From Natrinema caseinilyticum (lineage in GTDB: Archaea > Halobacteriota > Halobacteria > Halobacteriales > Natrialbaceae), in assembly GCF_024227435.1 (NCBI RefSeq), contig NZ_CP100446.1, positions 62,001 to 126,000 on the forward strand: a stretch of 64,000 nucleotides of DNA. Reading direction: 5' to 3'. The notes beneath the pieces were generated by a model. That model saw nothing but the letters and a program-made list of their open reading frames with translations, made no database searches and was not told where the DNA came from. Within the stretch, counting starts at the first letter, position 1. Every line of letters begins with the position of its first letter. Position numbers and translations under genes: made by a program. This document shows, one piece after another, positions 6,599-41,704 of the stretch.

Positions 6599-7162
6599 CT
6601 ACTCCCGGTCGTACGTCTCGATCCGCTCGTCGTCCGGCTCCCAGCCGACGAACGCGGTCTCCGGCTGTAACTCGAGCGCGTCGATGACGACGGCGGTGCC
6701 GAGGTAGTGGCCGACCAGCGACGCGATCCCCGCGACCGTCTCCTCGTCGAACTGGTCCTCGATCAGATCGTGTGCGTCGTCGTCGACCTCCCGGCGAGCG
6801 GCCCGTCGTGCGTACTCGAGCAACGCGGTGTCGGCGGGGTCGAACGCGTCGAAACGGCCGGCGCTAATCGCTCTGATCTCCTCGTGCTCGACGCCGACGT
6901 CGCGGGCGAGTCCGACGTGCTGGTGCCACTCGTACTCGTTGTCCAGTTCTCGAGCGACCGCCAGGATCGCCAACTCGACGTCCCGCGAGGGGAGGCCGGC
7001 GTGTTTCCACAGCGCGGTCCCGTGGCGCATGTACGTCTGAAGGACCGGCGGGTTCGCGCCGATGGCCTGTAACAGTTCGCGTTCGCCGAGTGCGTCTTCG
7101 CCGAGGAGATACTGGTACTCCTCCGGAAGGTCCGACTGTCGCGGCAGCGTGATGCGAGCCAT
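6599..7162 (-). CDS. Carboxymuconolactone decarboxylase family protein
   Basis: 187-residue all-helical CMD/AhpD-fold protein. The region ELDNEYEWHQHVGLARDVGVEHEEI is the family core. It lacks the CxxC pair of AhpD peroxidase-type members, so a lactone-decarboxylase-like or other non-redox role is expected. Met at 7162 was chosen because ACTTAATTC lies about 28 bases upstream and the residues before it look non-family. It sits between an MFS carrier and a CoA-transferase on the same strand, and a second, distant member lies at 43466-44023. The function is not known beyond the fold. Confidence 0.75.
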   Translation of the reverse strand: MARITLPRQSDLPEEYQYLLGEDALGERELLQAIGANPPVLQTYMRHGTALWKHAGLPSRDVELAILAVARELDNEYEWHQHVGLARDVGVEHEEIRAISAGRFDAFDPADTALLEYARRAARREVDDDAHDLIEDQFDEETVAGIASLVGHYLGTAVVIDALELQPETAFVGWEPDDERIETYDRE

Positions 7163-7391
7163 AGGTGACAGGGCTCGCAAATCGACTTAATTCTTCGGTC
7201 TCCCCCGATTCGAGGATCGTGCTGGAAGCGGGGTCGAGAGGAGGACAGGCGTCGAAACGGAAGCCGGAACTGGAACGAGAGAGACCGGAGGAACGGAAAC
7301 CCGAGACTGGAGGCCGTAGAGACCGGAGGTACTGAAACCGGGACCGAGGGTGTCGTTTTCCGACCCGCACTCGAGTCGCACTCGCCGTCCG
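7163..7391. repeat. Degenerate purine-rich direct repeat between genes
   Basis: Between the CoA-transferase stop and the carboxymuconolactone-like start the sequence is a patchwork of GGAAACC- and GACCGGAGG-like words. The clearest pair, AGAGACCGGAGG followed by a diverged GAAACC, starts near 7280 and again near 7318 (period 38). No gene was seen. Confidence 0.5.
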
Positions 7392-8597
7392 CTACCCGAT
7401 GATACCCTCTTCTCGGAGTCGCTCGAGATCGGCGGCCGAGTAGCCGTGGCGCTCGAGGATCGAATCGGTGCTCTCGCCGAGTTCCTGGGGCGCCACCTCG
7501 AGTTGGGTGCCGAGGTGGGCGAAGTGGACGGGTTGGTCGATCACGTCCGCGTTTTCCCGGCCGTCGCGTTCCATGACCTGGTGGAGCTCGCGCTGTTCGA
7601 CGTGTTCGTCCTCCCAGACCGTCTTCGTGTCGTAGATCGGGCCGGCGGGGACGCCCTCGTCGTGGAACCGATCGATCCAGTAGTCGCTCGATTCCGATTC
7701 CAGGATCGGTTCGATGATGTCGTCTAATTCCGTTCGGTTGTCGACCCGGCCGTCCATCGTGGCGAAGCGCTCGTCCTCGACGAGGTCCGGTCGGTCGATC
7801 GCGCGACAGAAATCGCGCCAGAACGACTGCGTTCCCGCGGCGACGACGATCGGTATATCGGCACAGTCGTACTTGCCGAACGGGAGGATCGACGGGTGGT
7901 GCGTCCCGAGACGAGGGAAGGGGTCGTCGAAGCCGAACGTGTACCCCGCGCGGGCGGTGAGCCACGTTATAGCGGCGTCCAACATGGGTACCTCTATCCA
8001 CTCGCCGTCGATCCGACCCCGCTCTCTGGCGTACAACGCGGCGAGGACGCTCTGGCTGGCGTAGGACCCGGCGATGAGATCGCCGCTCGGAAGGCCAGAC
8101 CACAGCGGTTGCCCGCCTTCTTCACCCGTGATACTCATGATCCCGCTCATACCCTGGATCAGCATATCCCACGCTGGGAGTTCCTCGTACGGGCTGTTGC
8201 GGCCGAATCCGGATATCGAACAGTAGATGAGGTCGGGATTCAGTTCGGACACGGTGTCGTACCCGAGTCCGAACGATTCGGCGCGACCGGGTTTCGTACT
8301 CTCGATGAACACGTCGGCGTCGGCGACGAGACGCTGGGCCGCCTCCTGTCCCGCGTCGCTTTTGAGGTCGATAGCGACGCTGTACTTGTTCCGATTCAGC
8401 GTGTCGAAGTAGGCGGGCCGTGGCTGAATAGACCGACTTCGATCGCCGCGGCCGACGGCTTCGATCTTGATCACTTCCGCCCCGAGGTCGCCGAGTGCCA
8501 TCGTCGCGAACGGGCCGGCGGCGACCTGGGTCAGATCGACGACAGTGATCCCTTCGAGGGGTAATACGTCAGTTTCCGGGGAATTCGCTGACTCCAT
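7392..8597 (-). CDS. CaiB/BaiF family CoA-transferase
   Basis: 401-residue family III CoA-transferase. The N-terminal block GITVVDLTQVAAGPFATMALGDLGAEVIKIE and the catalytic D173 in LPSGDLIAG are present. It is more diverged from the other three members here than the 14074 and 30817 proteins are from each other, so it may use a different acid. It lies in a minus-strand series with DUF35 and thiolase-like genes upstream (93-base gap) and the carboxymuconolactone-like protein downstream, consistent with CoA activation in the same pathway. Confidence 0.9.
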   Translation of the reverse strand: MESANSPETDVLPLEGITVVDLTQVAAGPFATMALGDLGAEVIKIEAVGRGDRSRSIQPRPAYFDTLNRNKYSVAIDLKSDAGQEAAQRLVADADVFIESTKPGRAESFGLGYDTVSELNPDLIYCSISGFGRNSPYEELPAWDMLIQGMSGIMSITGEEGGQPLWSGLPSGDLIAGSYASQSVLAALYARERGRIDGEWIEVPMLDAAITWLTARAGYTFGFDDPFPRLGTHHPSILPFGKYDCADIPIVVAAGTQSFWRDFCRAIDRPDLVEDERFATMDGRVDNRTELDDIIEPILESESSDYWIDRFHDEGVPAGPIYDTKTVWEDEHVEQRELHQVMERDGRENADVIDQPVHFAHLGTQLEVAPQELGESTDSILERHGYSAADLERLREEGIIG

Positions 8598-8690: not shown

Positions 8691-9095
8691 CTACTCCGCG
8701 AGTTCGAACTGATAGAGCTGCTGGCCGTCGCGTTCCTCCCAGGTCATCGTGACCGAGTCACCGACCGAAACGTCGCCCGGATCCGCGAGGACGTTCGCCA
8801 TCACCGTCACGTCGGTTTCGGCCCCCATCGTGACGAGTGCGACGACGTACGGCGTGTCCGCTTCGAACGCCTCCGTCGGCGCACGGTGAACGACGGTGAA
8901 CGATTCGACGGTCCCGGTCCCGTCCAGTTCGACCTCCTCGAAGTCCGTGTGCCAGCAGTTCGGGCAGGCCGCCGCCGGGTAGAACCGCTCCGTTCCGCAG
9001 TCGGTGCATCGCTGGACGACGAATCGGTCTTCGTTACAGGCCTCCCAGAATCTGGCGGTGTCTTCGGACGGCGTCGGAACGGGTTTGTCGCTCAT
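8691..9095 (-). CDS. Zn-ribbon/OB-fold (DUF35) protein, thiolase partner
   Basis: 134-residue protein with an N-terminal rubredoxin-like zinc ribbon (CTDCG then CPNC, two CxxC pairs) and a C-terminal OB fold, the DUF35 architecture. Such proteins bind thiolase-fold enzymes or MaoC hydratases and help bind acyl-CoA. Known examples are the archaeal HMG-CoA synthase/thiolase complex and the ChsH2 tail that binds the aldolase Ltp2. Met at 9095 was chosen because it is one base past the thiolase-like stop codon and starts the conserved helix; the longer frame reads back into that gene. Its role here is very likely as obligate partner of the upstream thiolase-like protein. Confidence 0.88.
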   Translation of the reverse strand: MSDKPVPTPSEDTARFWEACNEDRFVVQRCTDCGTERFYPAAACPNCWHTDFEEVELDGTGTVESFTVVHRAPTEAFEADTPYVVALVTMGAETDVTVMANVLADPGDVSVGDSVTMTWEERDGQQLYQFELAE

Positions 9096-9096
9096 G

Positions 9097-10242
9097 TTAC
9101 CACGCCTCCATGAGCAGCGTCGCGTTCGTAGACAGGACGCCGCCGACACCGTGGGCGAGCGCGACATCCGTCTCGACCTGCGTCTCCGCGGCCTCTCCGC
9201 GAATCTGTCTCGCAGCTTCGAGGATGTGGAAGACGCCGGCGCCGGCGTAGGAGAGTTCCCCGCCGTGCGTGTTCACCGGCAGGTCGCCGTCGACCGTGAT
9301 CCCCCGCTCGCGGACGAACGAACCGCCCTCGCCCTTCTCGCAGAATCCGAGATCCTCGAGCAGCATGAGCGGCGTGATCGAGAAGCAGTCGTACAACTGC
9401 GCGACGTCGACGTCGTCGGGCGTTCGGTCGGCCATTTCGAACGCCGTGGAACCGCTTTCGACGGCGGGACTGTACAGCAGATCGTTTCGCCGGTGGATGT
9501 ACTCGGAGCCGTGTCCCTCCCCGTAGCCCGTGAGTTCGACGGGGGCGCGGGTGTCCGCCGCGGCGTCGGCCGAGGAAACGACGACGGCACCGGCACAGTC
9601 GCTGATCAGCGCACACTCCAGTTTGTGAAGCGGCGAGGAGATCAATCCCGAGGAGAGCACATCCTCGACCTCGATCGGATCGGTCTGCTGTCCCTTCCCC
9701 CGCATCGACGCGTGTTCGCGACAGGCGACCGAGACCGTCGCGAGTTCCTCCGCGGTGGTCCCGTACTCCGCCATGTGCTTTCGGGCGATGAGCGCGTACA
9801 ACGACGGAACCATCGGACCGAACGGATTTTCGAACTCGGGGTGGCCGACTTCCGTCGCGAGGTTACTCACCCCGTCCCCTTTCGAGAACCCGGTGCGCCG
9901 ATTGTCGCCGAACGCGATCACGACGTTTTCACACTGTCCCTGCCGGATCGCGTTCGCGGCGTGGCACACGCCCACGAACGGCGTGGCGCCGCCGAGACGA
10001 AGGCTCTCGTTGTACGAGAGATTCAGGCCGAGGTAATCCGCGACGACCGTGCTGTGCATCAATTTCGGGTCGACGAGCGAGTACCCGGTCACGAGCCCGT
10101 CGATATCGTCTTTCTCGAGTCCGGCGTCGTCGACCGCCTCGAGACAGGCGGTCGCATAGAGGTTGATCGAATCCATATCCGGGGTACTCCCGATCGGAGA
10201 CTCACCGATACCCGTCACTGCGACCCGTTGTGTCGATCCCAT
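9097..10242 (-). CDS. Thiolase-fold protein lacking the nucleophilic Cys (Ltp2/SCPx-like, possible retro-aldolase)
   Basis: 381-residue thiolase-superfamily protein of the SCPx/lipid-transfer branch. At the site of the acyl-accepting Cys it reads LRLGGATP (residues 81-88), and the thiolase GHP motif is replaced by NTHGGELSYAG (324-334). It keeps YDCF (284-287) and a Tyr at 332. Loss of Cys with retained Tyr residues is the pattern of the steroid side-chain aldolase Ltp2, which cleaves 3-hydroxyacyl-CoA thioesters by retro-aldol chemistry with a DUF35 partner. A DUF35 gene follows one base downstream. True thiolysis looks unlikely. Met at 10242 is preceded by ATATATACATA at about -25, a good leaderless promoter. 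Databases would probably call it acetyl-CoA acetyltransferase. Confidence 0.82.
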   Translation of the reverse strand: MGSTQRVAVTGIGESPIGSTPDMDSINLYATACLEAVDDAGLEKDDIDGLVTGYSLVDPKLMHSTVVADYLGLNLSYNESLRLGGATPFVGVCHAANAIRQGQCENVVIAFGDNRRTGFSKGDGVSNLATEVGHPEFENPFGPMVPSLYALIARKHMAEYGTTAEELATVSVACREHASMRGKGQQTDPIEVEDVLSSGLISSPLHKLECALISDCAGAVVVSSADAAADTRAPVELTGYGEGHGSEYIHRRNDLLYSPAVESGSTAFEMADRTPDDVDVAQLYDCFSITPLMLLEDLGFCEKGEGGSFVRERGITVDGDLPVNTHGGELSYAGAGVFHILEAARQIRGEAAETQVETDVALAHGVGGVLSTNATLLMEAW

Positions 10243-10366
10243 ACACGCTATTCCAGCACATATATACATAATTCTTGTTGAAGAACGCGTCTCGGTCCAA
10301 AAAGCGGGTCACACGTCGTGGTACCGGTCGAATCGGTCGGCGCGACGAGGCAGGGAATCCGGTCGG

Positions 10367-10810
10367 CTACTCGTCGCCGTACTGGACCATTTTCCGGTGG
10401 TCCCAGACGACACAGACGTCGTCGTCCTGGTTGTAGACGGTCGTTTTGAGCGTGACGACGCCGCCTTTCTCCTTCTCCTCGAGGTCCGTTACCTCCTGGA
10501 CCGTTCGAACGGTATCGCCCGGGAAAACGGGGTTCGGGAATCGCATGTTATCGATTCCGTAGAGACCGATGACGGTTCCTTCCGAATAGCCGATGTGCGT
10601 CGTCAGGCCGAGTCCGATGCTGAACACGAGCGGACCGTGGGCGATTCGCGTTCCGAACATCGTGTCCTCGGCGTACTCCTCGCTGACGTGAATCTCGTTG
10701 TAGTCCCCCGAGAGACCCGCGAAGAACGTCACGTCGGCCTCCGTGACGGTTCGGGTCCTCGATTCGAACGTCTCCCCCATCTCGAACTCTTCGAAGTATT
10801 TGCCTGTCAT
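10367..10810 (-). CDS. MaoC-fold (R)-enoyl-CoA hydratase, complete active site
   Basis: 147-residue hot-dog-fold hydratase. The hydratase motif reads SGDYNEIHV, keeping catalytic D36, N38 and H41, so it should add water to a 2-enoyl-CoA. Met at 10810 was chosen over an upstream Met because GCATATAGAC is centred about 30 bases before it and the protein then starts as its relatives do. It lies upstream of the thiolase-like and DUF35 genes and next to a ligase relic. A second MaoC gene at 11424 has a damaged motif, so the two may form a heteromer with this one as the catalytic chain. Confidence 0.88.
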   Translation of the reverse strand: MTGKYFEEFEMGETFESRTRTVTEADVTFFAGLSGDYNEIHVSEEYAEDTMFGTRIAHGPLVFSIGLGLTTHIGYSEGTVIGLYGIDNMRFPNPVFPGDTVRTVQEVTDLEEKEKGGVVTLKTTVYNQDDDVCVVWDHRKMVQYGDE

Positions 10811-10870
10811 CCACTCGCACAATGCCGACGGAAGCGCATATAGACTTTGGTCTCCCCGAGTTCGGTTGTG

Positions 10871-11254
10871 TCATGGCACCTCACGGAATGGCTTATCAGG
10901 ACTGGTGTGCCTCACGGCATATGTCGTGGCAACTCGCCGAGTTCCCGACGTGCTGGACCGGAAGCCGGCCGTCGGCGGATCGACGCACAACGTCCCGCCG
11001 TACGGGTCGACGGCCGACAGCCGGTCTCGAATCTGCCGTTTGTCGAGGATGGGCACCGTCTCCCGGAAGTCCTCAGCCGATTCGATCGCCGCCAATTCCG
11101 CACGATCCACGTCCGCAACCGCACACCTGTCTTGCCAGATCGACGCGTTCTCGAGAACGTACATCGCCTGCTCTCGGAGTTCGGCCGCTTGCAGTCTGTG
11201 CAGGTCGGCTTTGGCAATCGTTTCGGCCGCCGGATTCCAGTAGTAATTCGGCAT
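10871..11254 (-). pseudogene. N-terminal remnant of a PaaK-like acyl/aryl-CoA ligase
   Basis: 127 codons that match only the first part of phenylacetate-CoA-ligase-type proteins, which normally run to about 430 residues. LHRLQAAELREQAMYVLENA corresponds to the first helix pair. FRETVPILDKRQIRD and DPYGGTLCVD correspond to the conserved stretch before the ATP loop. The sequence then degrades at SSTSGTRR, where the family has SSGTTG, and stops shortly after. No adenylation core or C-terminal domain follows in any frame before the MaoC gene. The fragment is probably non-functional. A separate relic at 13206-13713 has an N-terminus and the C-terminal domain, so two ligase copies, or one rearranged copy, have decayed here. 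Confidence 0.75.
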
Positions 11255-11423
11255 ATGTTAACTCACCACAGGTTCGGGTAAGTCATCCCGGTAAACCTAC
11301 TTAGGCTTTTCTCGGCCTGTGGTGGATACTCCCGGGGGCTGTGACGGAGGAGCGACAGCGACCCCACTCACGACGAGAAGCGGAAACGAACGTACGAGCG
11401 AAACCGGGCCGGCGAATCACCGC

Positions 11424-11867
11424 CTACGAACTGTCGGCGACCAGGACCTTGTGGACGTAGGTCAAAACCAGGGTGTCGTCCTGCGTGTGGGTTTCGGTCC
11501 TGAGGGCGACGACGCCGCCGCAATCCCTCGACTCAGTTTCGATTACCTCCTGTGTTACCTGCAACGTGTCGCCGATGTAGACCGGGTTCGGGAACCGGAC
11601 CCCGTCCATGCCGTAAAAGGCCCTGATGGTTTCCCGAAACGGACTGGCGGCGGTGATCAGCCCGGCCGTGCAGGTCAACGTGAGGAACCCGTTCGCTATC
11701 CGCTCGCCGTAGCCCGTGTCTTCGCACCAGGTTTTGCTCACGTGGCTCTCGTGGTAGGCGCCCATGAGTCCCTCGAAGAGGGTGAACTCGGACTCGGTCA
11801 CGGTTCGCGTACGAGACGTGAACGTGTCGCCGACGGCCAGGTCTTCGAAGCCCACGGATTCCGTCAT
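11424..11867 (-). CDS. MaoC-fold protein with substituted catalytic Asp
   Basis: 147-residue hot-dog protein, close in length and layout to the MaoC gene at 10367. At the hydratase site it reads MGAYHESHV: catalytic Asp is Ala37, Asn is His39, and only the second His (H42) is kept. Alone it is unlikely to hydrate an enoyl-CoA. In the actinobacterial ChsH1-ChsH2 complex one MaoC chain is catalytic and the other structural, and the same division is plausible here. Met at 11867 starts MTESVGFEDL as in relatives; the nine codons upstream are not conserved. It lies 64 bases downstream of an ACAD on the same strand. Confidence 0.82.
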   Translation of the reverse strand: MTESVGFEDLAVGDTFTSRTRTVTESEFTLFEGLMGAYHESHVSKTWCEDTGYGERIANGFLTLTCTAGLITAASPFRETIRAFYGMDGVRFPNPVYIGDTLQVTQEVIETESRDCGGVVALRTETHTQDDTLVLTYVHKVLVADSS

Positions 11868-11931
11868 CGAGACACCACCGTCTCCTCGCTGCATCCCGAA
11901 GTGCCGTCGTCTGTGACGTACTCGATCATGT

Positions 11932-13101
11932 TCAATACGACTTCGGGAGATCCAGTACGTGTTCGCCGACGTAGTTCAGGATCATCTGCTGTGAGACGGG
12001 CGCGATCTCCTGGAGGCGCATCTCCCGCCAGAATCGCTCTACCTCCGAGTCTTTCATGTACCCGCTCCCGCCGAGGGTCTGGATCGCACGGTTTGCCGCC
12101 TTGGTCCCCCACTCGCTCGCGACGAAGTTCGCCGCGTTCGATTCGAAGCCACAGGGCTCGTCGTGGTCGTACTTCCAGGCCGCTTTTCGGTTCGCGGCGT
12201 CTGCCGTCTCGAGGTGAATCTTCGCCTCGGCGAGGGGGAACTGAACCCCCTGATTCTTCCCGATCGGGCGGTCGAACACGACCCGATCCGACGCGTAGTC
12301 CGACGCCAGGTCGAGGACGTAATTGCCCGCACCGATACACGCCGCGGCGACGATCATCCGTTCCGGGTTGAGAATGTCGAGAATGCTCGGCCACCCGTCG
12401 TCGATCGGGCCCAGCGACGACCCCTCCGGCACCCGTATCTCGTTGATATACACGTGGCTGGTGTCGGTGTAGTTCAGCCCGAGTTTGTCCAGAGGCGTGA
12501 CCTCGATGTCGACGTCGTGGGCGTTTCGGTCGACGAGGAACATGGACATCCCGTCCGTTCGGGTATCACCGGACGGTTCGCTCGTCCGCGCCATGACGAG
12601 CATGAGATCGGCTCGAGACGCGTTCGAGATGTACGTCTTTTCTCCCCGAATGACCCACTCGTCGCCGTCTTTCTCCGCGGTCGTCTCCATCGAGAGGGTG
12701 TCGAACCCGGTTTGGGGTTCGGTGAGGAAAAATGCCGAGTTCAGCTCTCCGTTGGCGAGTTTCGGGAGGTACGTTTCCTTCTGGGCCTCCGTCCCGTTGC
12801 GAACGAGTGGAATCGTCACGAGACTGTGGACGATGTAGACGAAGGCAGCGCCGTAACCGGCTCCGGTCTGGGTCATCGCCTTGACCATGGTGAGTTCTTC
12901 GCGCATCGATCCGCCGGCACCGCCGTACTCCTCGGGGATTCGAAGGCCGAGCCAACCGCCCTCGTCGAGCCGGTCCCAGAACTCCGACGGGAACTCGTGG
13001 GCGGCGTCGTGTTCTCTCCAGTACGCTTCGTCGAGTCCGTCGAGCGCCTCGGTGACGGAGTCGTAAATCATCCGTTCCTCCGCGGTTCTATCGAATGTCA
13101 T
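11932..13101 (-). CDS. Acyl-CoA dehydrogenase (IVD-type Glu, APVS subfamily)
   Basis: 389-residue flavoprotein dehydrogenase. It has PEEYGG (56-61), the TEPQTGFD flavin loop (127-134), the KNQGVQFPLAEAK helix and the C-terminal ending HVLDLPKSY. At the medium-chain-type base position it has EIAPVSQQ instead of YEGTSE. E247 in NPERM occupies the isovaleryl-type position. The APVS/GPVS ending is shared with 18816 and 62319, defining one subfamily of three in this window. It leads the minus-strand set MaoC, (ligase relic), MaoC, thiolase-like, DUF35, matching desaturation before hydration and cleavage. A decayed ligase lies directly upstream. Confidence 0.9.
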   Translation of the reverse strand: MTFDRTAEERMIYDSVTEALDGLDEAYWREHDAAHEFPSEFWDRLDEGGWLGLRIPEEYGGAGGSMREELTMVKAMTQTGAGYGAAFVYIVHSLVTIPLVRNGTEAQKETYLPKLANGELNSAFFLTEPQTGFDTLSMETTAEKDGDEWVIRGEKTYISNASRADLMLVMARTSEPSGDTRTDGMSMFLVDRNAHDVDIEVTPLDKLGLNYTDTSHVYINEIRVPEGSSLGPIDDGWPSILDILNPERMIVAAACIGAGNYVLDLASDYASDRVVFDRPIGKNQGVQFPLAEAKIHLETADAANRKAAWKYDHDEPCGFESNAANFVASEWGTKAANRAIQTLGGSGYMKDSEVERFWREMRLQEIAPVSQQMILNYVGEHVLDLPKSY

Positions 13102-13205
13102 CGTGTATGTTCCTCCGTGGTGGAGTCACAGCTCATGTTTCGTCCCACGGCGGGTGAATCACAGCCTTCGTCCACGAGTACAACGTCTCCCTGATACTGT
13201 AAAGA

Positions 13206-13713
13206 TTACTCCGCGCGGGTGGAGACGTTCGGAGCGCGCCCGGACGGCGCCGCGGCGTTCGAGTGGTATCGGTCGTCGACGACGGATCGTTCGACCTCGA
13301 GACCGTCGACGATCTCGATCTCGTCCATCGTAACGAGCAGTTCCTCCGAGAGGCTCCGGCGGATCTCGGCGGGTGACGGCGCCTCCGATTCGTCGCCGCC
13401 GACGCGGAGTTCGATGCGATCGGTGTCGGTCCCCTCTCGACGGAGCACGAACTGGACGCTGGAGGCATCGAGTCCGTCGTATCCAGCGAGATGAAGCGCG
13501 GCCTGCGACGGATAGAGTTTCACGCACTTTCCCTCGTGCATGTCGTCGGTGCGACTCATCACACCGTTGGGGAGGTGCTGGCCCTCGTGGCCGCAGCGAC
13601 AGCGAGTCCAGGTCGGCAGGGTCGAGGTCGCCCGCCTCGAGTTCCTCCCGATAGAACGGATACTACCGATTACGAGACAGTTGGTCCCGCAAGTCCTCGA
13701 TAAGTCCCTCCAT
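13206..13713 (-). pseudogene. Decayed PaaK-like ligase: N-terminus, in-frame stop, large deletion, C-terminal domain
   Basis: From ATG at 13713 the frame reads MEGLIEDLRDQLSRNR, then a TAG stop, then YPFYREELEAGDLDPADLDSL. This is the recognisable start of a phenylacetate-CoA-ligase-type protein, where the motif is normally an uninterrupted PFYRE. The frame then changes, and from about 13562 to 13206 a different frame encodes GKCVKLYPSQ...VQFVLRREG...LLVTMDEIEIV, the family's C-terminal domain. The whole AMP-binding core is missing. Stop codon, frame change and core deletion make this a pseudogene. It lies upstream of the ACAD at 11932 and may once have activated that pathway's acid. Confidence 0.75.
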
Positions 13714-14073
13714 GGCTAGTGGGAAGCGTAAGCACGGCATAAACATTCGGGGGACGCAGAGTGATAGTGAGGGCGCACTAGGCGTTGGCAGGTGCTGGCG
13801 GCCGGAATGCGTGGATTTTGCGTCCCCAATTGTTGGTGTGAGGTTTTCGAAGTTAACTCTACCGGGGAATTGCACCATCAGCAACTGAAAGACGTTCCGA
13901 CCATCGCCAGACTCCGTCCATCGCTCGTTTTCTGTCGCCACCTCGTTTCGATCAGCGTCCCGCTTCGGGTGTCGCTCGGTTTCGGCCGCCTCCGACGGTC
14001 GATTCGGTGCATATCCCGCCGCGGTCAGACGGTGCATATAACTCATTGCGTTCCGTAGCCCGACGTATCCGCT
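13714..14073. other. 360-base gap without a recognised gene
   Basis: It lies between the decayed ligase and the CoA-transferase, which is transcribed to the right. A TATA-like GCATATAACT at 14034-14043 precedes the CoA-transferase start by about 36 bases, implying a short leader. A 9-base inverted pair (GGGGACGCA at 13750 and its complement at 13819) is visible, but the spacing is long and its meaning unclear. No coding sequence was seen. Confidence 0.5.
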
Positions 14074-15255
14074 ATGCAACCACTGAGAGGGATTGACGTA
14101 CTCGACTTTACGCAGTCTATCGCCGGTCCGATCTGTACGCAGTCGTTGGCCGTCCTCGGAGCGAACGTCGTGAAGGTCGAACCGCCCGAAGGGGACGCAT
14201 TCAGGCCCCTCATCGACGGCTCTATGTTCGCGTCGTGTAATCGCGGCAAACGAAGCATCAGCCTCGACCTGAAGAGCGACTCGGGACGAGCGATCGCTCG
14301 CGACCTGGCGGCCGACGCGGACGTCGTCGTCGAGAGTTTCCGACCCGGTGTGATGGAACGGTTCGATCTGGGCTACGGTGACCTCCTCGAAGAAAACGAG
14401 GACCTCGTCTACTGCTCCATCACGGGATTCGGACAGGACGGGCCGTACGAACAATATCCCGCGTACGACCCGGTCGCACAGGCGATGTCGGGACTCATGA
14501 GCGTCACCGGCGACACCGACGGCGACCCGGTCCGCGTCGGAACCAGCGCCATCGATTATACGACCGGGCTGACGGGTGCCATGCTCGTCATGGGCGGACT
14601 GATCCGCCCCGGATCGGACGGCGGGACGCACATCGACCTCTCGCTGTTCGACGTCGCCACGACGTGGATGGGCTACTGGGTCGCACACTACACCTCGACG
14701 GACGACCTTCCCAAACGAGCGGGTGCGGGTCTTTACGGGATGTCTCCCTACGGTATTTTTGAAGCCGGCGACGGGCGGCCGTTCTACCTCGCGACGGCGT
14801 CGGAGAAACTGTACCGACGACTCTGTCGGACCATAGAGCGGGAAGACCTGCTCGAGGACGACCGCTTCGAGACCGCCGCGGATCGATGGGACAACCGCGA
14901 GGTCCTCCGAGCGGAACTCGAATCCGCGTTCGGGCAGTACGACCGTCGGGAACTGGTCGAACTTCTAGCCGGGTCCGGCGTCCCCGCCGGACCGCTGCAG
15001 TCGATCGACGAACTGGTCGAGGACGATCCCCACGCCGACCATCGGGACCTGTTCGTCGACACGTACAACCAGTGGCTCGAGACCGAGTGCCGAACGACGC
15101 GAATGCCGTTTCGGTTCGCGGACGGGTCGCTCGAGGCCGCGTCTCCGCCGCCGAGAAAGGGCGAACACACGCGAGCCGTACTCGGCGAGTACGGCTACGA
15201 CGACGAGACGATTACCGACCTGCTGGACGCGGACGTCCTGCGGGAATCGTCGTAA
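14074..15255 (+). CDS. CaiB/BaiF family CoA-transferase
   Basis: 393-residue family III CoA-transferase with catalytic D161 in GTSAIDYTTG. It is a clear paralogue of the protein at 30817: both open MQPL..ID..D.TQSIAGP.CTQ, share VKVEPP.GDAFRPL, have the catalytic Asp at residue 161, and end in PP.KGEHT. It stands alone on the plus strand between the ligase relic and the TRAP transporter genes, which are convergent. It may have replaced the decayed AMP-forming ligases as the CoA-activating step. The acid is unknown. Confidence 0.9.
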   Translation: MQPLRGIDVLDFTQSIAGPICTQSLAVLGANVVKVEPPEGDAFRPLIDGSMFASCNRGKRSISLDLKSDSGRAIARDLAADADVVVESFRPGVMERFDLGYGDLLEENEDLVYCSITGFGQDGPYEQYPAYDPVAQAMSGLMSVTGDTDGDPVRVGTSAIDYTTGLTGAMLVMGGLIRPGSDGGTHIDLSLFDVATTWMGYWVAHYTSTDDLPKRAGAGLYGMSPYGIFEAGDGRPFYLATASEKLYRRLCRTIEREDLLEDDRFETAADRWDNREVLRAELESAFGQYDRRELVELLAGSGVPAGPLQSIDELVEDDPHADHRDLFVDTYNQWLETECRTTRMPFRFADGSLEAASPPPRKGEHTRAVLGEYGYDDETITDLLDADVLRESS

Positions 15256-15557: not shown

Positions 15558-17549
15558 TCAGGCTGGTGCGACCGTTTTCGACGAGTTACGCTCCATGTAG
15601 TGGAACGCGACGACGATGAGGGCGGCCACGGCGAATCCGGCCGCCTGAATCGTGGTCGTGCCCCAGAACATGACGGCGACCAGCGCGCCGCCTGCAACGG
15701 TCTTGATGGCGCCGTTGACGTACTCGTGGTAGCCGAGATTGAAGTGGATGATGGTGACGATCGCGGTGAACGTCGTGAGCAGGTAGACGAACGTCAGGGG
15801 CGTGTCACCGTTCCAGTTCGCGATACTCGGGTGGTAGATGATCGTGTAGGGGAGGATAAACAACGGTGCACCCAGAATCATCGCCTTTTTCGCCACTTTG
15901 AGGAAATCCGCTTCGGCGATACCGCTCGCGATGACGGCCGCGAGTGCGACCGGTGGGGTGATCGCGGACAGGATCGCGAAGTAGAACACGAACAGGTGCG
16001 TGTTGAACTCCGCGATCCCCAGGTCCGCCACGGCCGGGGCAACGAACACGACGACGACGACGTACGCCGCGACCGTCGGCATTCCCAGCCCGAAGATGAT
16101 CGAGAGGATCATCGCGACGAGCAACAGCGGGAAGAGCAGTCCGCCGGAGATGTCAAGCATCATGAACGACAGCACCTGCACGAGGTTCCCGCTGCCGAGC
16201 AGGCTGACGAATATCGCGATCGCGCCGAGGACGACCATGATCTCCGCGCTGGCGATCGCCCCCTTCTGGAGACCGACGCCCAGGTTTCGACCGTAGTCAC
16301 GCAGCGTCTCACCTCGATCGTCGGCCAGTATCATTTTCCAGATGAACTGGAGCACGAGGAGAGACATGACGGAGTGGAAGCCGGACGTCAGCGGCCCGAT
16401 CTGTCTGATCCCGAGGTCGTAGATGAGAACCAAGACGGACACTGCCAGGGGTAAGTAGACGTACCACGCCTGCCCGGACTCCTGTGTCGTCTCGAGGGTA
16501 TGCTCGTCCGACGCGGGTTCGGATAGTTCGTACCCCTTGCTGACGTAGTAGACGGAAATCGAGACGGTGAGATAGAAGATGATCGCCGGGAGCAACGCGC
16601 CGACGATGACGTCGAAATAGCGGATATTCAGGAACGAGGCCATGACGAAGGCTGACGCGCCCATGATCGGCGGAAGCACCTGTCCACCCGAAGACGCGTT
16701 CGATTCGATGGCCGCGGCCGTTTCGCCGTCCATGCCGTAACTCTTCATCAGCGGGATCGTCACGGCACCGGTCGTGGCCGTGTTCGCGGCCGCACTCCCC
16801 GAAATCGAACCCATGATGAAACTCGTGACGACCGCCAGCTGCGGCACACCGGACTGGAGGTGCTGGTTCATCCGCGCACCGAAGTCCATGGCCAGTTGCA
16901 GGGCACCGAACTCGATCAGGAGACTCGCGTAGACCAGAAAGAGGACGATCCACTGGGCACCGACGCCCGGAAGGAATCCGAACAGGCCGATGTCGAACAC
17001 GAGCGCGGTTCGCTCGAGGACTCGGGCGAACTGGATGCTACTGTGGCCGAACTGTCCCGGGATGTACGATCCCAGCATCGCGTATCCGAACGACAGCACC
17101 ACGACGCTCGTGATGAAGACACCGTACCGGCGATACGTAAAGAGGAGAATCGCCCCGACCAGGATGATCGCGAACACGTACTCCTGTTGGGTGTAGTTCA
17201 AAATCCTCGTCAGGATCGTGGAGTAACTCGTCACGAAATAGTACGTGATGTACAGTATCAGTGCCGAACTGACCAACTTCGCGGCGAAGAGGACCTTTCC
17301 GGTCAGTTCGTCGAGATTGGCTTCGACCAACTGGATCATCAGGAAGATGGAGAGACCGAGCGAGATAATCGTGTGCTGGTCACTGTTCACGACGAACGTG
17401 AACGCATACAGAATGTGATAGACGGAGAATGCGATCGCGCTTAGCGTAAGCATCAACCACTGAGCATTATCGAGGGTGAAATCGAGGGCGGGCAACTGCT
17501 CCCCTTTCTCCTCTAACGTCAGCTCCTGGTCGGAGGTTGTGTTCGACAT
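15558..17549 (-). CDS. TRAP transporter fused permease (DctQ-DctM type, TAXI family)
   Basis: 663-residue membrane protein joining the small (DctQ-like) and large (DctM-like) TRAP permease parts in one chain, as is usual in TAXI-type systems. An N-terminal block of hydrophobic helices is followed by the DctM core with GSISGSAAANTATTG, LPPIMGASAFVMA and GLGMPTVAAYV, and by SAITPPVALAA near the C-terminus. It uses ion gradients rather than ATP to import organic acids delivered by the binding protein. Its start lies 25 bases after the binding-protein stop on the same strand, so the two form an operon. The substrate is probably a carboxylate, given the surrounding CoA-transferases. Confidence 0.93.
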   Translation of the reverse strand: MSNTTSDQELTLEEKGEQLPALDFTLDNAQWLMLTLSAIAFSVYHILYAFTFVVNSDQHTIISLGLSIFLMIQLVEANLDELTGKVLFAAKLVSSALILYITYYFVTSYSTILTRILNYTQQEYVFAIILVGAILLFTYRRYGVFITSVVVLSFGYAMLGSYIPGQFGHSSIQFARVLERTALVFDIGLFGFLPGVGAQWIVLFLVYASLLIEFGALQLAMDFGARMNQHLQSGVPQLAVVTSFIMGSISGSAAANTATTGAVTIPLMKSYGMDGETAAAIESNASSGGQVLPPIMGASAFVMASFLNIRYFDVIVGALLPAIIFYLTVSISVYYVSKGYELSEPASDEHTLETTQESGQAWYVYLPLAVSVLVLIYDLGIRQIGPLTSGFHSVMSLLVLQFIWKMILADDRGETLRDYGRNLGVGLQKGAIASAEIMVVLGAIAIFVSLLGSGNLVQVLSFMMLDISGGLLFPLLLVAMILSIIFGLGMPTVAAYVVVVVFVAPAVADLGIAEFNTHLFVFYFAILSAITPPVALAAVIASGIAEADFLKVAKKAMILGAPLFILPYTIIYHPSIANWNGDTPLTFVYLLTTFTAIVTIIHFNLGYHEYVNGAIKTVAGGALVAVMFWGTTTIQAAGFAVAALIVVAFHYMERNSSKTVAPA

Positions 17550-17574: not shown

Positions 17575-18621
17575 TTATCCTTCGATCAGGTCGTCGTTCC
17601 AGAGGTCGTTTTCCTTGTACCACTCGACGGCCCCTGGGTGAACCGGCGATTTCGTCATACCACTGACCGCGTACTCCTCGTTGAATAGTCCGAGGGCGTC
17701 GTGAACCTCCTGCAACTGGCTCACGTTGTTGAACGATATCTCACAGAACTCCTTGACGTTCTCGTTGCTGAGGTCGGGGTGGACGTACCACTGGTACTGA
17801 GACGTGGGCGACTTGACCGTATCGACGTTCGTCTCGAACGGGAAGACCTCGTTGACCGGAACCTCACGGACGTTGAGGTACGGGTCCTCCTCGAACGTCG
17901 AGTACTGACTGTCCGAGAACGGCAGGACCCGAAGGCTGTCCTGGTTGGCAAGTTGCTCCGCCCAGCCGGGGAGGGACGTCCCGCTCGCCATCACGTAACA
18001 GTACGCGGCGTCGACTCGTCCTTCTTCCAGCGCGAACGGAATGTCGGACCAGTCACCCTGGACAAGTTCCATGTTGCTCAACATTCCGACGCTATCGAAC
18101 GGGATCGCACCGACGAATCGAGATCCGGCGGCACCGTTGTGAACGGTTTTGCCCTCGAGGTCTTCGATCGACTGGATGCTATCGTCGAGGGTCACCCAGA
18201 ACGGCCGAAGGTCACTGACCGCCATGACCTGTTGTGGAACCGTCGGAATGGCGCTCTCCCCACCGAAGTTCGCCCCCGGTCGGCTCTCCTCGTTGTAGGA
18301 CGCCATCCCCATCGCGCTCGTCCCCCTCGTAATGTGGTTGTCACCCGCAGCGGTGAGTCGATACGCTTCCTCTGATCCGCCAGTCGTGTTGAGAGTCAGA
18401 GAAATATCGGTGTCCGCTTCGTCGAAGACGCGAGCCCACCCAGTGGCTTTCACGTATCCGATCGTTCCTTCACGGGTAATCCCGAAGCTCCATTCGGTAG
18501 CATCGCTATCGACGTTGCTGCTACCGCCGTTGCCCCCACCAATACAGCCTGCGAGCCCTGCTACTCCCGCTACACCTGCAGCCTTGATAAAGTGCCTTCT
18601 GTTGTACGACATCCGTGTCAT
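17575..18621 (-). CDS. TAXI family TRAP transporter solute-binding protein, Tat-type lipoprotein
   Basis: 348-residue extracytoplasmic binding protein. The N-terminus has a twin-arginine motif (NRRHFIK), a hydrophobic stretch and a lipobox LAGC, followed by a Gly/Ser-rich linker, so it should be exported folded and lipid-anchored. The mature part resembles TAXI proteins: GYVKATGWARVF near the start, then GGSEEAYRLTAAGDNHITRG, and a DLEGKTVHNG segment. ATG 18621 is used here; ATG 18612 (MSYNRRHF) is equally possible and leaves the signal intact. A TATA-like TCATAAATAG lies at 18638-18649. It binds the acid imported by the adjacent fused permease. Confidence 0.9.
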   Translation of the reverse strand: MTRMSYNRRHFIKAAGVAGVAGLAGCIGGGNGGSSNVDSDATEWSFGITREGTIGYVKATGWARVFDEADTDISLTLNTTGGSEEAYRLTAAGDNHITRGTSAMGMASYNEESRPGANFGGESAIPTVPQQVMAVSDLRPFWVTLDDSIQSIEDLEGKTVHNGAAGSRFVGAIPFDSVGMLSNMELVQGDWSDIPFALEEGRVDAAYCYVMASGTSLPGWAEQLANQDSLRVLPFSDSQYSTFEEDPYLNVREVPVNEVFPFETNVDTVKSPTSQYQWYVHPDLSNENVKEFCEISFNNVSQLQEVHDALGLFNEEYAVSGMTKSPVHPGAVEWYKENDLWNDDLIEG

Positions 18622-18815
18622 GACTACCCAAGCCAAATCATAAATAGTTATCGATATTTATCACATATGTTCCTGGAGAACTGAAGTATTACGCGGCGAA
18701 TTTTTGCAGTATTACGGTTAAAGGCCGCCAGTATCGCCGAGTGGCCATTTTATAACGGGTCGTTCGGTTACTACGTTCGATTTTTGATAGAAAAAGTAGG
18801 CTGCCGCCCGACCAC

Positions 18816-22887: not shown

Positions 22888-23802
22888 TCACTCGACGAGT
22901 TCGTTCAACAGACCGCCGGGTTCCGTTTTCGATCGCGGCTCTCCCTCGAGCAGGTCGTCGAACTGTGCGGCGAGATCGGTCGCGTTCCACCCGCCCTCTG
23001 CCGTCAGCGATCGGTCCCACTCGGGATCGGTGACGGTGAAGACAGTATCGCCGCCGATGGCGAACGTCCAGCCGTTGACATCCGTCGCGTCGTCGGCCAG
23101 CAACACGATGGGAAGTGCGACGACTTTCTCGGGCCCCAGCTCGTCCTGTGGAAGTTGCTCGAGGACGTCTTCGGGGACGTTCGCGTCGAGCATTCTGGTG
23201 ATCGCCGCCGGCATCATCGCGTTGACGCGGACGTTGTACCGGTGGAGTTCGCGAGCGGCCGTTCGAGTGAGCCCGAGAATGCCCGCCTTGGCTGCGGAGT
23301 AGTTGATCTGGGACGCGCTCCCTCTGGACGACGCCGACGATACCGACACGAACGAGCGCTGGGAATCGAGGCCCTCGGCCTTGCTACGTTGGCGCCAGTA
23401 GCCACCCAGGTGATGGATGAGATTGAAGTGACCGGTGAGGTGGACGTCGGTCACCGCCTTCCAGTTCTCCGGATCCATATTGAACAGCATGTCGTCCCGG
23501 AGGAAGCCGGCGTAGTTGACGGCCCCGTCGATGCGGCCGTACTCCTCGACCGTCTCCTCGACCAGCGACTCGACGTACTCGTAGTCCGTGATGTCGCCGA
23601 AGCTCGCCATCGCTTCGCCGCCGTTTGCGGTGATTTCGTCGACGACGTCGTGGAGCGGTTCCTCGTCCGCGCCCTCGCCGTGGGGTTTCGACCCGAGGTC
23701 GCTGACGACGACGGACGCACCCAGCTCCGCCATCCGGAAGGCCGTTTCGCGGCCCAGACCGCTCGCACCGCCGGTGATAATCGCCACTTTGCCGTCGATC
23801 AT
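22888..23802 (-). CDS. SDR family dehydrogenase, MFE-2-like (3-hydroxyacyl-CoA type)
   Basis: 304-residue SDR resembling the dehydrogenase domain of peroxisomal multifunctional enzyme 2. TGGASGLG is at residues 10-17, followed by an SDLG segment where MFE-2 proteins have NDLG; NYAG is at 96-99, and Y168 and K172 form the active site. The extra C-terminal segment after the Rossmann core (GGWNATDLAAQFDDLL) is also found in 35924, its paralogue. It should oxidise a 3-hydroxyacyl-CoA. Its ATG overlaps the stop of the citrate-synthase-like gene (ATGA), so the two are translated together. It is the last gene of the operon that starts at 28240. Confidence 0.9.
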   Translation of the reverse strand: MIDGKVAIITGGASGLGRETAFRMAELGASVVVSDLGSKPHGEGADEEPLHDVVDEITANGGEAMASFGDITDYEYVESLVEETVEEYGRIDGAVNYAGFLRDDMLFNMDPENWKAVTDVHLTGHFNLIHHLGGYWRQRSKAEGLDSQRSFVSVSSASSRGSASQINYSAAKAGILGLTRTAARELHRYNVRVNAMMPAAITRMLDANVPEDVLEQLPQDELGPEKVVALPIVLLADDATDVNGWTFAIGGDTVFTVTDPEWDRSLTAEGGWNATDLAAQFDDLLEGEPRSKTEPGGLLNELVE

Positions 23803-24566
23803 CGCGTCTCACCGTCCTGGTACTCGACGTTCTCCTCGACGACGTCCCAGATGTCGCGAGCCATCGGCTCGTGAATCTCCTCGTTTAGGTGCCCGACGAG
23901 TCCCGCAGACCGGGCGACGAGCGCGATCCCGCGAGCGACGATCGGGTCGAGGCCGAGTTCCGACACCCCCACACCGATCGCGCCGGTCGCGTTGATCAGC
24001 GGACGCGAACCGAACTGCTCCTCTGCCGCGTCCTGAACGTCGTAGATGAACTCGAGGTACGGGCCGTCCATCCCTTCCTCCTCGAGAATTTCGAAGATCC
24101 GGTCGGTGCGCGGGTCCGTGGGTTCGTGCTCCGGGTGACCGAAGCCGGGGAGTCGGTCGTGTGCCGCGACGACGTCACGGGCGACGGCCTCGCTCGAATC
24201 GCCGTTTTCGATCCGCGAGACGCCGTCCTGAACGATTTCGGCGACGTCCTGCATCGATCCGAGGAAGGTCTTCCCCGCACCGAGCAAGCCACTCGAGACC
24301 GCACCCTGTACCGCTTCGGGCGCCGAATCGTACGTGAGCCGCGCCGCGATCACGCTCGGGGTGACCCCGTGTTCGACGACCGTGACCAGGAGCGTATTGA
24401 ACACGCGGGACTCGGAGTCGGTCGGCATCTCGCCCGTCAGATGGAAGTAGAAGAATTCGCCGAAATCGAGGGTTCCCATGAGATCGTCCGTGAGATCCGC
24501 CCCTCTGACGGTGATTCGCTGCTCGTCCGATGTCGCTATCGATGTACGTAAGGGTCTCTCACCCAT
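23799..24566 (-). CDS. Citrate synthase-like protein (citryl-CoA-lyase-type family), atypical active site
   Basis: 255-residue protein, about two thirds of a citrate synthase. Family landmarks are VEHGVTPS (64-71), GLLGAGKTFLGS (93-104), PGFGHPEHEPTDPR (140-153) and RPLINATGAIG (188-198). H144 in GFGHP corresponds to the second catalytic His. The first catalytic His (in GPLHG of citrate synthase) and the catalytic Asp (in NVDF) are replaced. Classical citrate synthesis is therefore unlikely; a lyase or hydrolase acting on a CoA ester is possible. It lies 31 bases after a crotonase and overlaps the SDR by four bases. A TATA-like TCTTATACTTA about 28 bases before the start suggests an extra promoter. 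The true reaction is unknown. Confidence 0.7.
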   Translation of the reverse strand: MGERPLRTSIATSDEQRITVRGADLTDDLMGTLDFGEFFYFHLTGEMPTDSESRVFNTLLVTVVEHGVTPSVIAARLTYDSAPEAVQGAVSSGLLGAGKTFLGSMQDVAEIVQDGVSRIENGDSSEAVARDVVAAHDRLPGFGHPEHEPTDPRTDRIFEILEEEGMDGPYLEFIYDVQDAAEEQFGSRPLINATGAIGVGVSELGLDPIVARGIALVARSAGLVGHLNEEIHEPMARDIWDVVEENVEYQDGETR

Positions 24567-38163: not shown

Positions 38164-38916
38164 TTACAGGCTGGAATACTTGTCGCGCCGGAACAGGTCC
38201 AACTCGGTTACCGCGTTCGGCGTCTCCTGGCGTGCAGCGAAGGCGATCGCCTCGGCGATGGCTCGCGGCCCGGTGACTTCGCCCGGTTCGAAGCGCTCCT
38301 CCGAGGTTTTCTCGCGATACTCCTTGCCGAACTCCGTTCGGACTTCCGACGGGTTCACGATGCTAACGGCGATGTCGTCGGTGCCGACCTGCCCCGCGAG
38401 GCTCTTCGCGAAGCCGCGGGTCCACCACTTCGTCGCGGCGTAAATCGGCGATTTCGAACGTGGATTCTTACCCGCCGCACTCGCGACGAAAAGGAGCGTT
38501 CCGTCCGTTTCCCGCAGGTGTGGTATCGCCGCACGCGCGGCGTAGAACATACCGTCGACGTTCACGCCCATGACGGTTCGATACTGATCGGTCGGAAACT
38601 CCTCGACGGTCGTCTCGGAGGTGGTCGCGATTCCCGCGTTGTTCACCAGTACGTCCAGCTTCCCGAAAGTCGAGACCGTTTGCTCGACGACGGCCTCGAC
38701 GTCGGACTCGTCGCTCACGTCGGCCGGACAGACGAGCGCCGTCGCATCCGTCTCGGACTCGATTTCGTCCGCCAGTTCTCGCAGCCGCTCTTCCCGACGG
38801 GCGACCAGTGTAACGTCCGCACCGTCGGCCGCGAGAACGCGCGCCGTCTCTTTTCCGATTCCCGCGCTCGCTCCGGTGACGATCGCTGCGGTGCCTGCCA
38901 GTGATTCGGTAACCAT
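38164..38916 (-). CDS. SDR family oxidoreductase, classical type
   Basis: 250-residue SDR with TGASAGIG (14-21), NNAG (92-95), and catalytic Y159 and K163. The ARREERLRELADEI region suggests NADP preference, because basic residues follow the second beta strand. The substrate pocket is not one I can place; relatives include general alcohol and 3-oxoacyl reductases. ATG 38916 was chosen because it starts the conserved MVTESLAGTAAIVTG; upstream frame sequence is not conserved. It lies 276 bases after the IclR gene (convergent), with an MFS carrier upstream on the same strand. Confidence 0.85.
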   Translation of the reverse strand: MVTESLAGTAAIVTGASAGIGKETARVLAADGADVTLVARREERLRELADEIESETDATALVCPADVSDESDVEAVVEQTVSTFGKLDVLVNNAGIATTSETTVEEFPTDQYRTVMGVNVDGMFYAARAAIPHLRETDGTLLFVASAAGKNPRSKSPIYAATKWWTRGFAKSLAGQVGTDDIAVSIVNPSEVRTEFGKEYREKTSEERFEPGEVTGPRAIAEAIAFAARQETPNAVTELDLFRRDKYSSL

Positions 38917-39054
38917 CGTCGGAGGATTATCACGGGAGGTCAAAACAGTACGTGTTATCGCAGCACACGCAGCGAGGTACCGACTCGAATCGACCGATCC
39001 ACCGACCGCCGGCGTCACCGGGGACACTCCACTATCGATCTGTTTCGAGAGCGG

Positions 39055-40233
39055 TCAGAATCCGAGACGGAGGACGCGATTCGCCGCGAGTGCGGCGAGT
39101 GCAACCGACATGATACCAACGAGCAGCGTGAACGAGGCGTCCCAGCCGTACAGGTCGGCGAGCGCACCGACCACGACGCTTCCCGACGCACCGGTCGTCA
39201 TGTACATCGTTCTGACGAGACCGAATCCGGTGCCGCGTTCGGCCGGCGAAAGGAGATCCATGAATCGCGACTGGATGGGCGCCCCCCAACTCATCGCGAG
39301 CCCGACGAACAATACACCGACGCCAAACTCGAGAAGGGTGGCGCCGACGACGAGCAACCCGTATCCGACGATGCCGGCACACATGGTCACGATCGCGGCC
39401 CTGTCGCGCCCGATTCGATCGGAAAGCCCGCCCATCAGCGGTTGCGTGAGGCCATGGATTACGAAGTAGGCCGAAAAGAGTCCGCTCGCGATTGCCGGCG
39501 AAAGCGCCTTGCCTTCGGCGAGAAAGGCGGGCAAGAACGACGCAGTCGCTTGCCAGGTGAACGCACAGAGAAACGAAATGAGCATCGTGTACGTGACCGC
39601 CGGCCGCGAGAGCAGTTCGAACATCGCCCCGAGTTCGATGCGTTCCCGCATTGGCTGTTCGGGTCGGTCCGGCTTCGTCGGTCGAATTCGCCACGCGAAC
39701 AGGGCGAAAAGCGGCGCCGCGGTGAAGAACCCGAGAAGCATGGCCACGCGCCAATCGTACCGAACGGCGACCATCGTCGCGGCGACGGGCGCGAACAGTC
39801 CCGCGATCGGACCGCCTGCGATATGAACGCCGATCGCACGTCCGGTGTCAGCGAATTGTTTCGTGAGGTACGTCGTTGCGACCGTATAATGAAGTCCCGC
39901 GCCGAGGCCGAGGACGACGGTCGAGAGGACGAAAAACTCGTAGGAGGGGGAGACGGCGAGCAGCACGCTCGAAATCGCGGTCAGCCCGAGCGAGACGAGA
40001 ACGACTCGCCGTTCTCCGAATCGGTCGCCCAGAATACCGCTCGGAAACTGCGTCAGCGCGTAGGTGCCCCACATCAACGAGAGTGCGGTCCCGAGGGCCG
40101 CGTTGGAAACCGCAAAATCGTCGGTGATAGCGGGCACGAGCGGGCTGATAACGAGGCGTGCGACCATCGTCGCCATGAACGCAAACGTACAGAGAAGCAA
40201 CGCCGTATGTCGATATCGCCAGTTCACAGCCAC
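39055..40233 (-). CDS. MFS transporter
   Basis: 392-residue major facilitator with about twelve hydrophobic helices and the loop motif GDRFGERRVV after helix 2, repeated in degenerate form as SDRIGRDRAAI in the second half. The start codon is GTG at 40233. The substrate cannot be named. It lies between an SDR downstream (138 bases after its stop) and an ACAD upstream (103-base gap), all on the minus strand, so it probably moves an acid or alcohol used by them. Confidence 0.85.
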   Translation of the reverse strand: MAVNWRYRHTALLLCTFAFMATMVARLVISPLVPAITDDFAVSNAALGTALSLMWGTYALTQFPSGILGDRFGERRVVLVSLGLTAISSVLLAVSPSYEFFVLSTVVLGLGAGLHYTVATTYLTKQFADTGRAIGVHIAGGPIAGLFAPVAATMVAVRYDWRVAMLLGFFTAAPLFALFAWRIRPTKPDRPEQPMRERIELGAMFELLSRPAVTYTMLISFLCAFTWQATASFLPAFLAEGKALSPAIASGLFSAYFVIHGLTQPLMGGLSDRIGRDRAAIVTMCAGIVGYGLLVVGATLLEFGVGVLFVGLAMSWGAPIQSRFMDLLSPAERGTGFGLVRTMYMTTGASGSVVVGALADLYGWDASFTLLVGIMSVALAALAANRVLRLGF

Positions 40234-40336
40234 TATACAGAGACACCTGAAAAACGGTTTGTGGTTTCGGACCGTCCGGCCGAACCGGGAAGTGCCGTTC
40301 CGACGGAACGAAATTATCGGGGCGCGACGGCGCCTC

Positions 40337-41497: not shown

Positions 41498-41520
41498 ACA
41501 GGTACCACGTCTCGCCATCG

Positions 41521-41529
41521 ATAATTAAG
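41521..41529 (-). promoter_or_regulatory. TATA box for ACAD at 40337-41497
   Basis: ATAATTAAG centred 27 bases before ATG 41497; implies a leaderless message. The sequence lies in the short region shared with the divergent VOC gene. Confidence 0.55.
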
Positions 41530-41704
41530 TCTTCTACTCTCTTCCCGGACGGATGGCGCTGGGAGAAGACGATCTGTGACGGACCGATCAGTTCTCGTCG
41601 TCGGCCCGCATCGCCGCCGTGCGAAGATAGCCGTCGACGAATTATAGCTCCCATGTCACATACGAGTAGATACATATACGTGTGGTTCGCATCGACATCC
41701 CGTG

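Follow-up and report, generated by a model that had tools for sequence, protein, structure and literature searches.

Gene content of the locus

The window analyzed here is a 64,000-nucleotide stretch of DNA that forms a portion of a 715-kb replicon in the salt-loving archaeon Natrinema caseinilyticum. Its minus strand encodes a thiolase-fold protein (Thl; positions 9097 to 10242) that lacks the nucleophilic Cys of true thiolases, followed by a stand-alone DUF35 protein (positions 8691 to 9095). A preliminary description of the locus had grouped these two genes with genes for an acyl-CoA dehydrogenase (ACAD), two MaoC hydratases, one without its catalytic Asp, and the relic of a ligase as a module resembling the ChsE/ChsH/Ltp2 system for cholesterol side-chain degradation. 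All of the elements named in that description were located on the minus strand, where profile searches with Pfam and NCBIfam identified ACAD, both MaoC domains, a thiolase domain, and DUF35. The gene order, the motifs (LRLGGATP, NTHGGELSYAG, and YDCF in Thl and the zinc ribbon in DUF35), and the single base between the TAA stop codon of Thl and the ATG of DUF35 were as described.

Read on the minus strand from position 13562 to position 6599, the order is a weak PaaK C-terminal fragment, ACAD, MaoC1, a PaaK N-terminal fragment, MaoC2, Thl, DUF35, the family III CoA-transferase CaiB1 (7392 to 8597), and an AhpD-like, carboxymuconolactone-decarboxylase (CMD-family) protein (6599 to 7180). A second, divergent family III CoA-transferase gene (CaiB2; 14074 to 15255, plus strand) is followed by minus-strand genes for the large (fused) permease (15558 to 17549) and the TAXI-type substrate-binding protein (17575 to 18636) of a TRAP transporter. 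The profiles placed MaoC domains in open reading frames (ORFs) 11424 to 11894 and 10367 to 10822 and a thiolase C-terminal domain in ORF 9097 to 10269. Translation of Thl probably starts at 10242 rather than at 10269, for one orthologue carries a stop codon shortly before the corresponding ATG.

The DUF35 protein has a zinc ribbon and an OB fold (currently named zf-ChsH2 and OB_ChsH2_C), and its best solved match is TcChsH2-DUF35 of the Ltp2 complex. Its zinc motif is of the C4 type (CxxC...CxxC), with neither a MaoC fusion nor the Cys3His1 site found in Shy, the DUF35 partner of a bile-acid aldolase. From its profiles, motif, and best solved match, it is predicted to be an obligate partner of Thl.

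Active site and phylogeny of Thl

The Thl motifs LRLGGATP, YDCF, and NTHGGELSYAG align with the nucleophilic Cys, HDCF, and GHP sites of acetoacetyl-CoA and SCP2 thiolases, respectively, none of which is kept in Thl. The position of the nucleophile is occupied by Gly85, which aligns with Gly89 of CtSal, the bile-acid side-chain aldolase of Comamonas testosteroni that acts with the DUF35 protein CtShy (PDB 9MYR). The catalytic residues of CtSal, Tyr302 and Cys304, correspond to Tyr284 and Cys286 of Thl, and Gly391 corresponds to Gly368. In CtSal, Tyr302 and Cys304 of the YDCY motif are essential, and Gly89 stands at the Cys site (PMC12329534). Judged from this alignment, the active site of Thl is of the CtSal type, with a Tyr and a Cys, and not of the Ltp2 type, with two Tyr. 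Ltp2 of the cholesterol side-chain aldolase-hydratase Ltp2-ChsH1-ChsH2 (PDB 6OK1) has YDHF rather than YDCF, and its second catalytic Tyr (Tyr344) is absent from Thl, which has Gly334 near that site.

The solved structures that best match the Thl sequence are 4u4e, CtSal, and TcLtp2, all of which score above true thiolases. The first of these is an uncharacterized "thiolase" from Sphaerobacter that also lacks the nucleophilic Cys but differs from Thl in its YDSF and NTNGGG motifs. A search with the AF2 model of Thl (predicted local distance difference test score, 84.9) in Foldseek likewise returned 4u4e and CtSal at the top. However, the predicted fold is near to aldolase-type and true thiolase structures alike, and therefore structure alone does not decide which reaction Thl catalyzes.

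In an unrooted tree of 49 proteins, the Cys-less proteins formed one clade apart from true thiolases (support, 100/100). This clade contains Sal and Ltp2, both of them demonstrated aldolases that depend on DUF35. Sal and Ltp2 belong to separate clades, and the Sal clade (100/100) does not include Thl. Thl and its three haloarchaeal orthologues fell in a third lineage (98/94), together with bacterial YDCF/NTHGG proteins and a large YDSF/YDAF subclass. Clustering of Thl with ordinary acetoacetyl-CoA thiolases, which would have contradicted the preliminary description, was not found. Placing Thl within them, or with the thiolases of its own genome, was rejected by the approximately unbiased (AU) test (P of about 5e-6). 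An AU test that joined Thl with all thiolases (P = 0.30) was uninformative because, on an unrooted tree, this constraint merely moves Thl to the base of its clade. These sequence comparisons favor, but do not prove, a place outside Sal, with Thl an archaeal member of a mostly bacterial sister lineage.

The Cys-less family splits cleanly into an NTHGG subclass (mostly YDCF) and an NT[DNSQ]GGG subclass (YDSF or YDAF) (motif table, loci L037 to L116). The latter, which is much the larger, has neither the nucleophilic Cys of thiolases nor the Cys of Sal, and its chemistry is unexplained. Two further Cys-less thiolase-fold genes with YDSF and NTDGGG motifs, each adjoining a DUF35 gene, lie at positions 38344 to 42671 of the replicon, ca. 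19 to 24 kb upstream of the window. Among eight aligned homologues from the same genome, the nucleophile site is Gly in four, Ser in one (with HDMF), and Cys in three, and those three also have HDCF, as genuine thiolases do. In bacteria, proteins like Thl carry the annotation acetyl-CoA acetyltransferase, thiolase, or lipid-transfer protein, though they lack the thiolase nucleophile.

Accessory genes and conservation of the locus

MaoC2 (10367 to 10810) has an intact Asp36-x4-His41 pair (G-D-Y-N-E-I-H), whereas in its paralogue MaoC1 (11424 to 11867) the Asp is replaced by Ala37 and only His42 is retained (G-A-Y-H-E-S-H). Alignment thus bore out the loss of the Asp in one copy. The two sequences fit the pattern of a heteromer with one catalytic chain, as in the MaoC pair of the Ltp2 system, and it is possible that MaoC1 is a noncatalytic partner chain of MaoC2. 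The best match to MaoC1 among 292 genomes of the class was MaoC2 of the same cluster (ca. 45 to 46% identity). Among the nonhaloarchaeal MaoC proteins compared, those closest to MaoC2 (37 to 41%) adjoin sister-group Thl genes in Achromobacter, Salipiger, and Celeribacter. On the Salipiger (L151, 9001 to 10655) and Celeribacter (L152, 8989 to 10638) plasmids, Thl is directly followed by MaoC, and no DUF35 gene was annotated or detected nearby.

The likeness to ChsE did not hold. The cluster has a single ACAD gene (11932 to 13101), not the two-gene ChsE1/ChsE2-type heteromer, and its best solved relatives are ordinary ACADs. None of the aligned ACADs has Glu both on helix G and at the C-terminal site. 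In the Natrinema protein the helix G Glu (NPERMIVAA) is the predicted base, whereas the C-terminal site is occupied by Pro. Helix G is the base position of the isovaleryl- and long-chain-type enzymes. The position hints at a beta-branched substrate, which would explain the need for a retro-aldol step because a tertiary 3-hydroxyl group cannot be oxidized.

The ligase relic was confirmed by alignment. The 5' fragment of a PaaK-like CoA ligase at 10871 to 11254 corresponds to residues 15 to 113 of an intact 454-amino-acid haloarchaeal PaaK-like ORF (38% identity) and breaks off at the SGTTG loop. A probable 3' fragment at 13206 to 13562 matches the profile weakly (NF041878; E value, 4e-4; model positions 323 to 417 of 427). 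The two fragments bracket MaoC1 and ACAD in circularly permuted order. A search around them for the flanking repeats of an inserted element yielded just short, imperfect, chance-like repeats and no clear target duplication.

Three orthologous loci were found in a search of 29 genomes of the genus, 292 genomes of the class, and GTDB contigs. Thl is 97, 90, and 86% identical in these loci, the closest being that of Natrinema gelatinilyticum. The order Thl-DUF35-CaiB1 is invariant in all three and is under purifying selection, with ratios of nonsynonymous to synonymous substitution rates (dN/dS) of 0.05 to 0.29 (0.05 to 0.08 for Thl against the three orthologues and 0.05 to 0.12 for Thl and MaoC2). 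CaiB2, the AhpD-like gene, and the TRAP/TAXI genes were each retained in two of the three loci, the permease gene adjoining Thl in one of them. MaoC2 was present in one, which belongs to another Natrinema genome and has an 89% identical copy lying upstream of Thl.

The intact six-gene order was found nowhere else in the genomes and contigs searched, and no close relative of ACAD or MaoC1 was detected in the genus or the 292 class genomes at the cutoffs used. The ACAD-MaoC1-ligase stretch (positions 10818 to 14037) is absent from all three orthologous loci, and the six genes therefore do not form a long-established unit; the stretch was either gained here or lost elsewhere.

Similar gene sets recur near bacterial relatives in Roseovarius, Rhodococcus, and Achromobacter. 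For example, a Roseovarius locus carries ACAD, Thl, DUF35, two MaoC genes, and a TRAP transporter, and it holds the nearest bacterial relative of the Natrinema ACAD among the loci compared. The order ACAD-CaiB-CaiB-MaoC-MaoC-Thl-DUF35 occurs on a Rhodococcus plasmid whose Sal-like enzyme is 52% identical to CtSal. Of the 13 NTHGG-type loci, 8 had a MaoC gene no more than 2.5 kb away, compared with 9 of the 52 remaining loci (P = 0.003 by Fisher's test, uncorrected for relatedness). The affinities of MaoC1, MaoC2, and ACAD, the recurring bacterial gene sets, and this proximity of MaoC support the view that the catabolic module is real as a kind, though the exact gene order in the window is unique so far.

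Proposed function and alternative explanations

These results suggest that Thl and DUF35 probably form a complex that acts as an acyl-CoA retro-aldolase, as Sal and Ltp2 do, on a substrate supplied by CoA transfer, dehydrogenation, and hydration by MaoC. This function is favored because of the place of Thl in the Cys-less clade, its Tyr-Cys dyad, and the rejection of a place among acetoacetyl-CoA thiolases. A carboxylic acid would be taken up, perhaps via the TRAP/TAXI system, and converted to its CoA thioester by CaiB1, the predicted activating enzyme, and/or CaiB2. An acyl-CoA dehydrogenase, either the ACAD of the cluster or another of the many in the genome, would introduce an alpha,beta double bond, which MaoC2, possibly paired with MaoC1, would hydrate to a 3-hydroxyacyl-CoA. 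In Thl, Tyr284 would act as the base on the 3-hydroxyl and Cys286 as the acid to the enolate. Cleavage of the bond between C2 and C3 would release acetyl-CoA or propionyl-CoA together with an aldehyde or a ketone and would require neither free CoA nor a 3-keto intermediate. Such a step would be chemically required if C3 carried no hydrogen or if the 3-hydroxyacyl-CoA could not be oxidized. Of this scheme, the sequence itself establishes which genes are present, the missing nucleophilic Cys, the Tyr-Cys dyad, the clade of Thl, and purifying selection, while the complex, the succession of steps, the uptake, and the substrate are inferred.

The module would work like the Sal and Ltp2 systems but lacks some features of each. 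CtSal-CtShy shares with the Natrinema locus the thiolase fold, the Gly at the Cys site, the Tyr-Cys dyad, the NTHGG motif, the DUF35 partner, and the hydratase context, but CtSal is only ca. 35% identical to Thl, and CtShy is a Cys3His protein fused to MaoC. The Ltp2 system shares the retro-aldol logic and has the DUF35 partner closest by sequence, but ChsH2 is a MaoC-DUF35 fusion. Thus, of the resemblance to ChsE/ChsH/Ltp2 in the preliminary description, the aldolase clade, the DUF35 adjacency, and the recurrent MaoC, ACAD, and CoA-transferase genes stood, whereas the Sal-type active site, the single ACAD, and the unfused DUF35 did not fit it.

Several observations weigh against a retro-aldolase module. 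Thl keeps none of Gln161, Gln347, and Gln352 of CtSal, with Glu329 in place of Gln347 and Gly334 in place of Gln352. Joining Thl with Sal or with Ltp2 was neither supported nor rejected (AU P = 0.086 and 0.13), and no characterized member of the third lineage was found. The ligase is broken, the stretch that holds it, ACAD, and MaoC1 occurs in none of the three orthologous loci, and MaoC2 is missing from two of those loci and, at the threshold used, from the whole N. gelatinilyticum genome.

It is quite possible, at somewhat less than an even chance, that ACAD, MaoC1, and the ligase fragments in the interval between MaoC2 and CaiB2 were acquired, are decaying, and have no relation to Thl. The working unit would then be Thl-DUF35-CaiB1 (with MaoC2), served by dehydrogenases from elsewhere in the genome. 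The absence of the stretch from the orthologous loci, the lack of close relatives, the broken ligase, and the lost Asp of MaoC1 are all consistent with acquisition and decay. However, MaoC1 finds its best match in MaoC2 of its own cluster, the nearest bacterial ACAD among the loci compared belongs to a sister module, and neither the MaoC1 ORF nor the ACAD ORF is interrupted, both showing normal codon-position GC. This explanation concerns the module and not the reaction of Thl, and it is compatible with a retro-aldolase.

It is unlikely that Thl is another thiolase-fold enzyme acting on C-C bonds, such as a decarboxylase or an enzyme of CoA-thioester aldol or Claisen condensation, with MaoC and CaiB serving a biosynthetic or other route. 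A Cys-less SCP2-thiolase-like protein of Trypanosoma with the same YDCF motif has very weak malonyl-CoA decarboxylase activity alone (PMC12329534). That protein is among the best structural matches of Thl (Z score, 50), and aldol reactions are reversible. Yet the recurrent context of dehydrogenase, hydratase, CoA-transferase, and transporter genes is catabolic. The nucleophilic Cys that Thl lacks is required both by Friedel-Crafts acylases and by the condensing thiolases that have a DUF35 partner, and on this ground Friedel-Crafts acylase (PhlABC, MucABC) and benzoylsuccinyl-CoA thiolase were rejected as candidates.

It is highly improbable that Thl is simply a thiolase for acetoacetyl-CoA or 3-ketoacyl-CoA with a different nucleophilic Cys. 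The overall fold is the same, and the acetoacetyl-CoA thiolase of a methanogen, which is likewise bound to DUF35, has a structural score almost as high. However, that archaeal enzyme has the nucleophilic Cys and HDCF, whereas Thl has Gly at the nucleophile site, Tyr where HDCF has His, and no GHP motif. Its grouping with such thiolases is rejected, and the same genome has three homologues with the Cys and HDCF.

The third lineage may, with about an even chance, represent a further group of DUF35-dependent thiolase-fold retro-aldolases in bacteria and haloarchaea. It would serve a general, nonsteroid route for acids that block beta-oxidation, with activation by CoA-transferase and uptake by TRAP transporters, and Natrinema would then provide the first example from the archaea of an acyl-CoA retro-aldolase with a thiolase fold. 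The literature searched yielded no such archaeal enzyme and nothing relevant on DUF35/thiolase proteins or cholesterol degradation in haloarchaea. In Sphingomonadaceae, the ibuprofen retro-aldolase IpfD-IpfE, a thiolase-like protein and its partner, releases propionyl-CoA from a nonsteroid acyl-CoA (PMC9195938). Thus, the chemistry is not confined to steroids, although the IpfD-IpfE substrate, unlike that proposed for Natrinema, comes from a ring dioxygenase. The plasmid hits that probably represent IpfD are 58% matches to Ltp2, which places IpfD in the Ltp2 branch and not in the Thl lineage.

No evidence pointed toward the alpha-branched, terpenoid, or steroid substrate that the preliminary description had suggested. 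A search of the Natrinema genome for KshA_C, a domain of the steroid ring oxygenase, gave no match, a weak negative because no control genome passed the family cutoff. If Thl is a retro-aldolase, a reaction documented chiefly in the degradation of steroids and ibuprofen would also occur in an archaeal, probably nonsteroid route, and many haloarchaeal "thiolase" annotations and beta-oxidation reconstructions may be wrong.

Elsewhere in the window, positions 23799 to 24566 encode a short protein with the C-terminal domain of citrate synthase alone (citryl-CoA lyase-like), with genes for ECH, SDR, and AMP-ligase proteins next to it. A Martelella Thl locus (L153) likewise has an annotated citryl-CoA lyase nearby.

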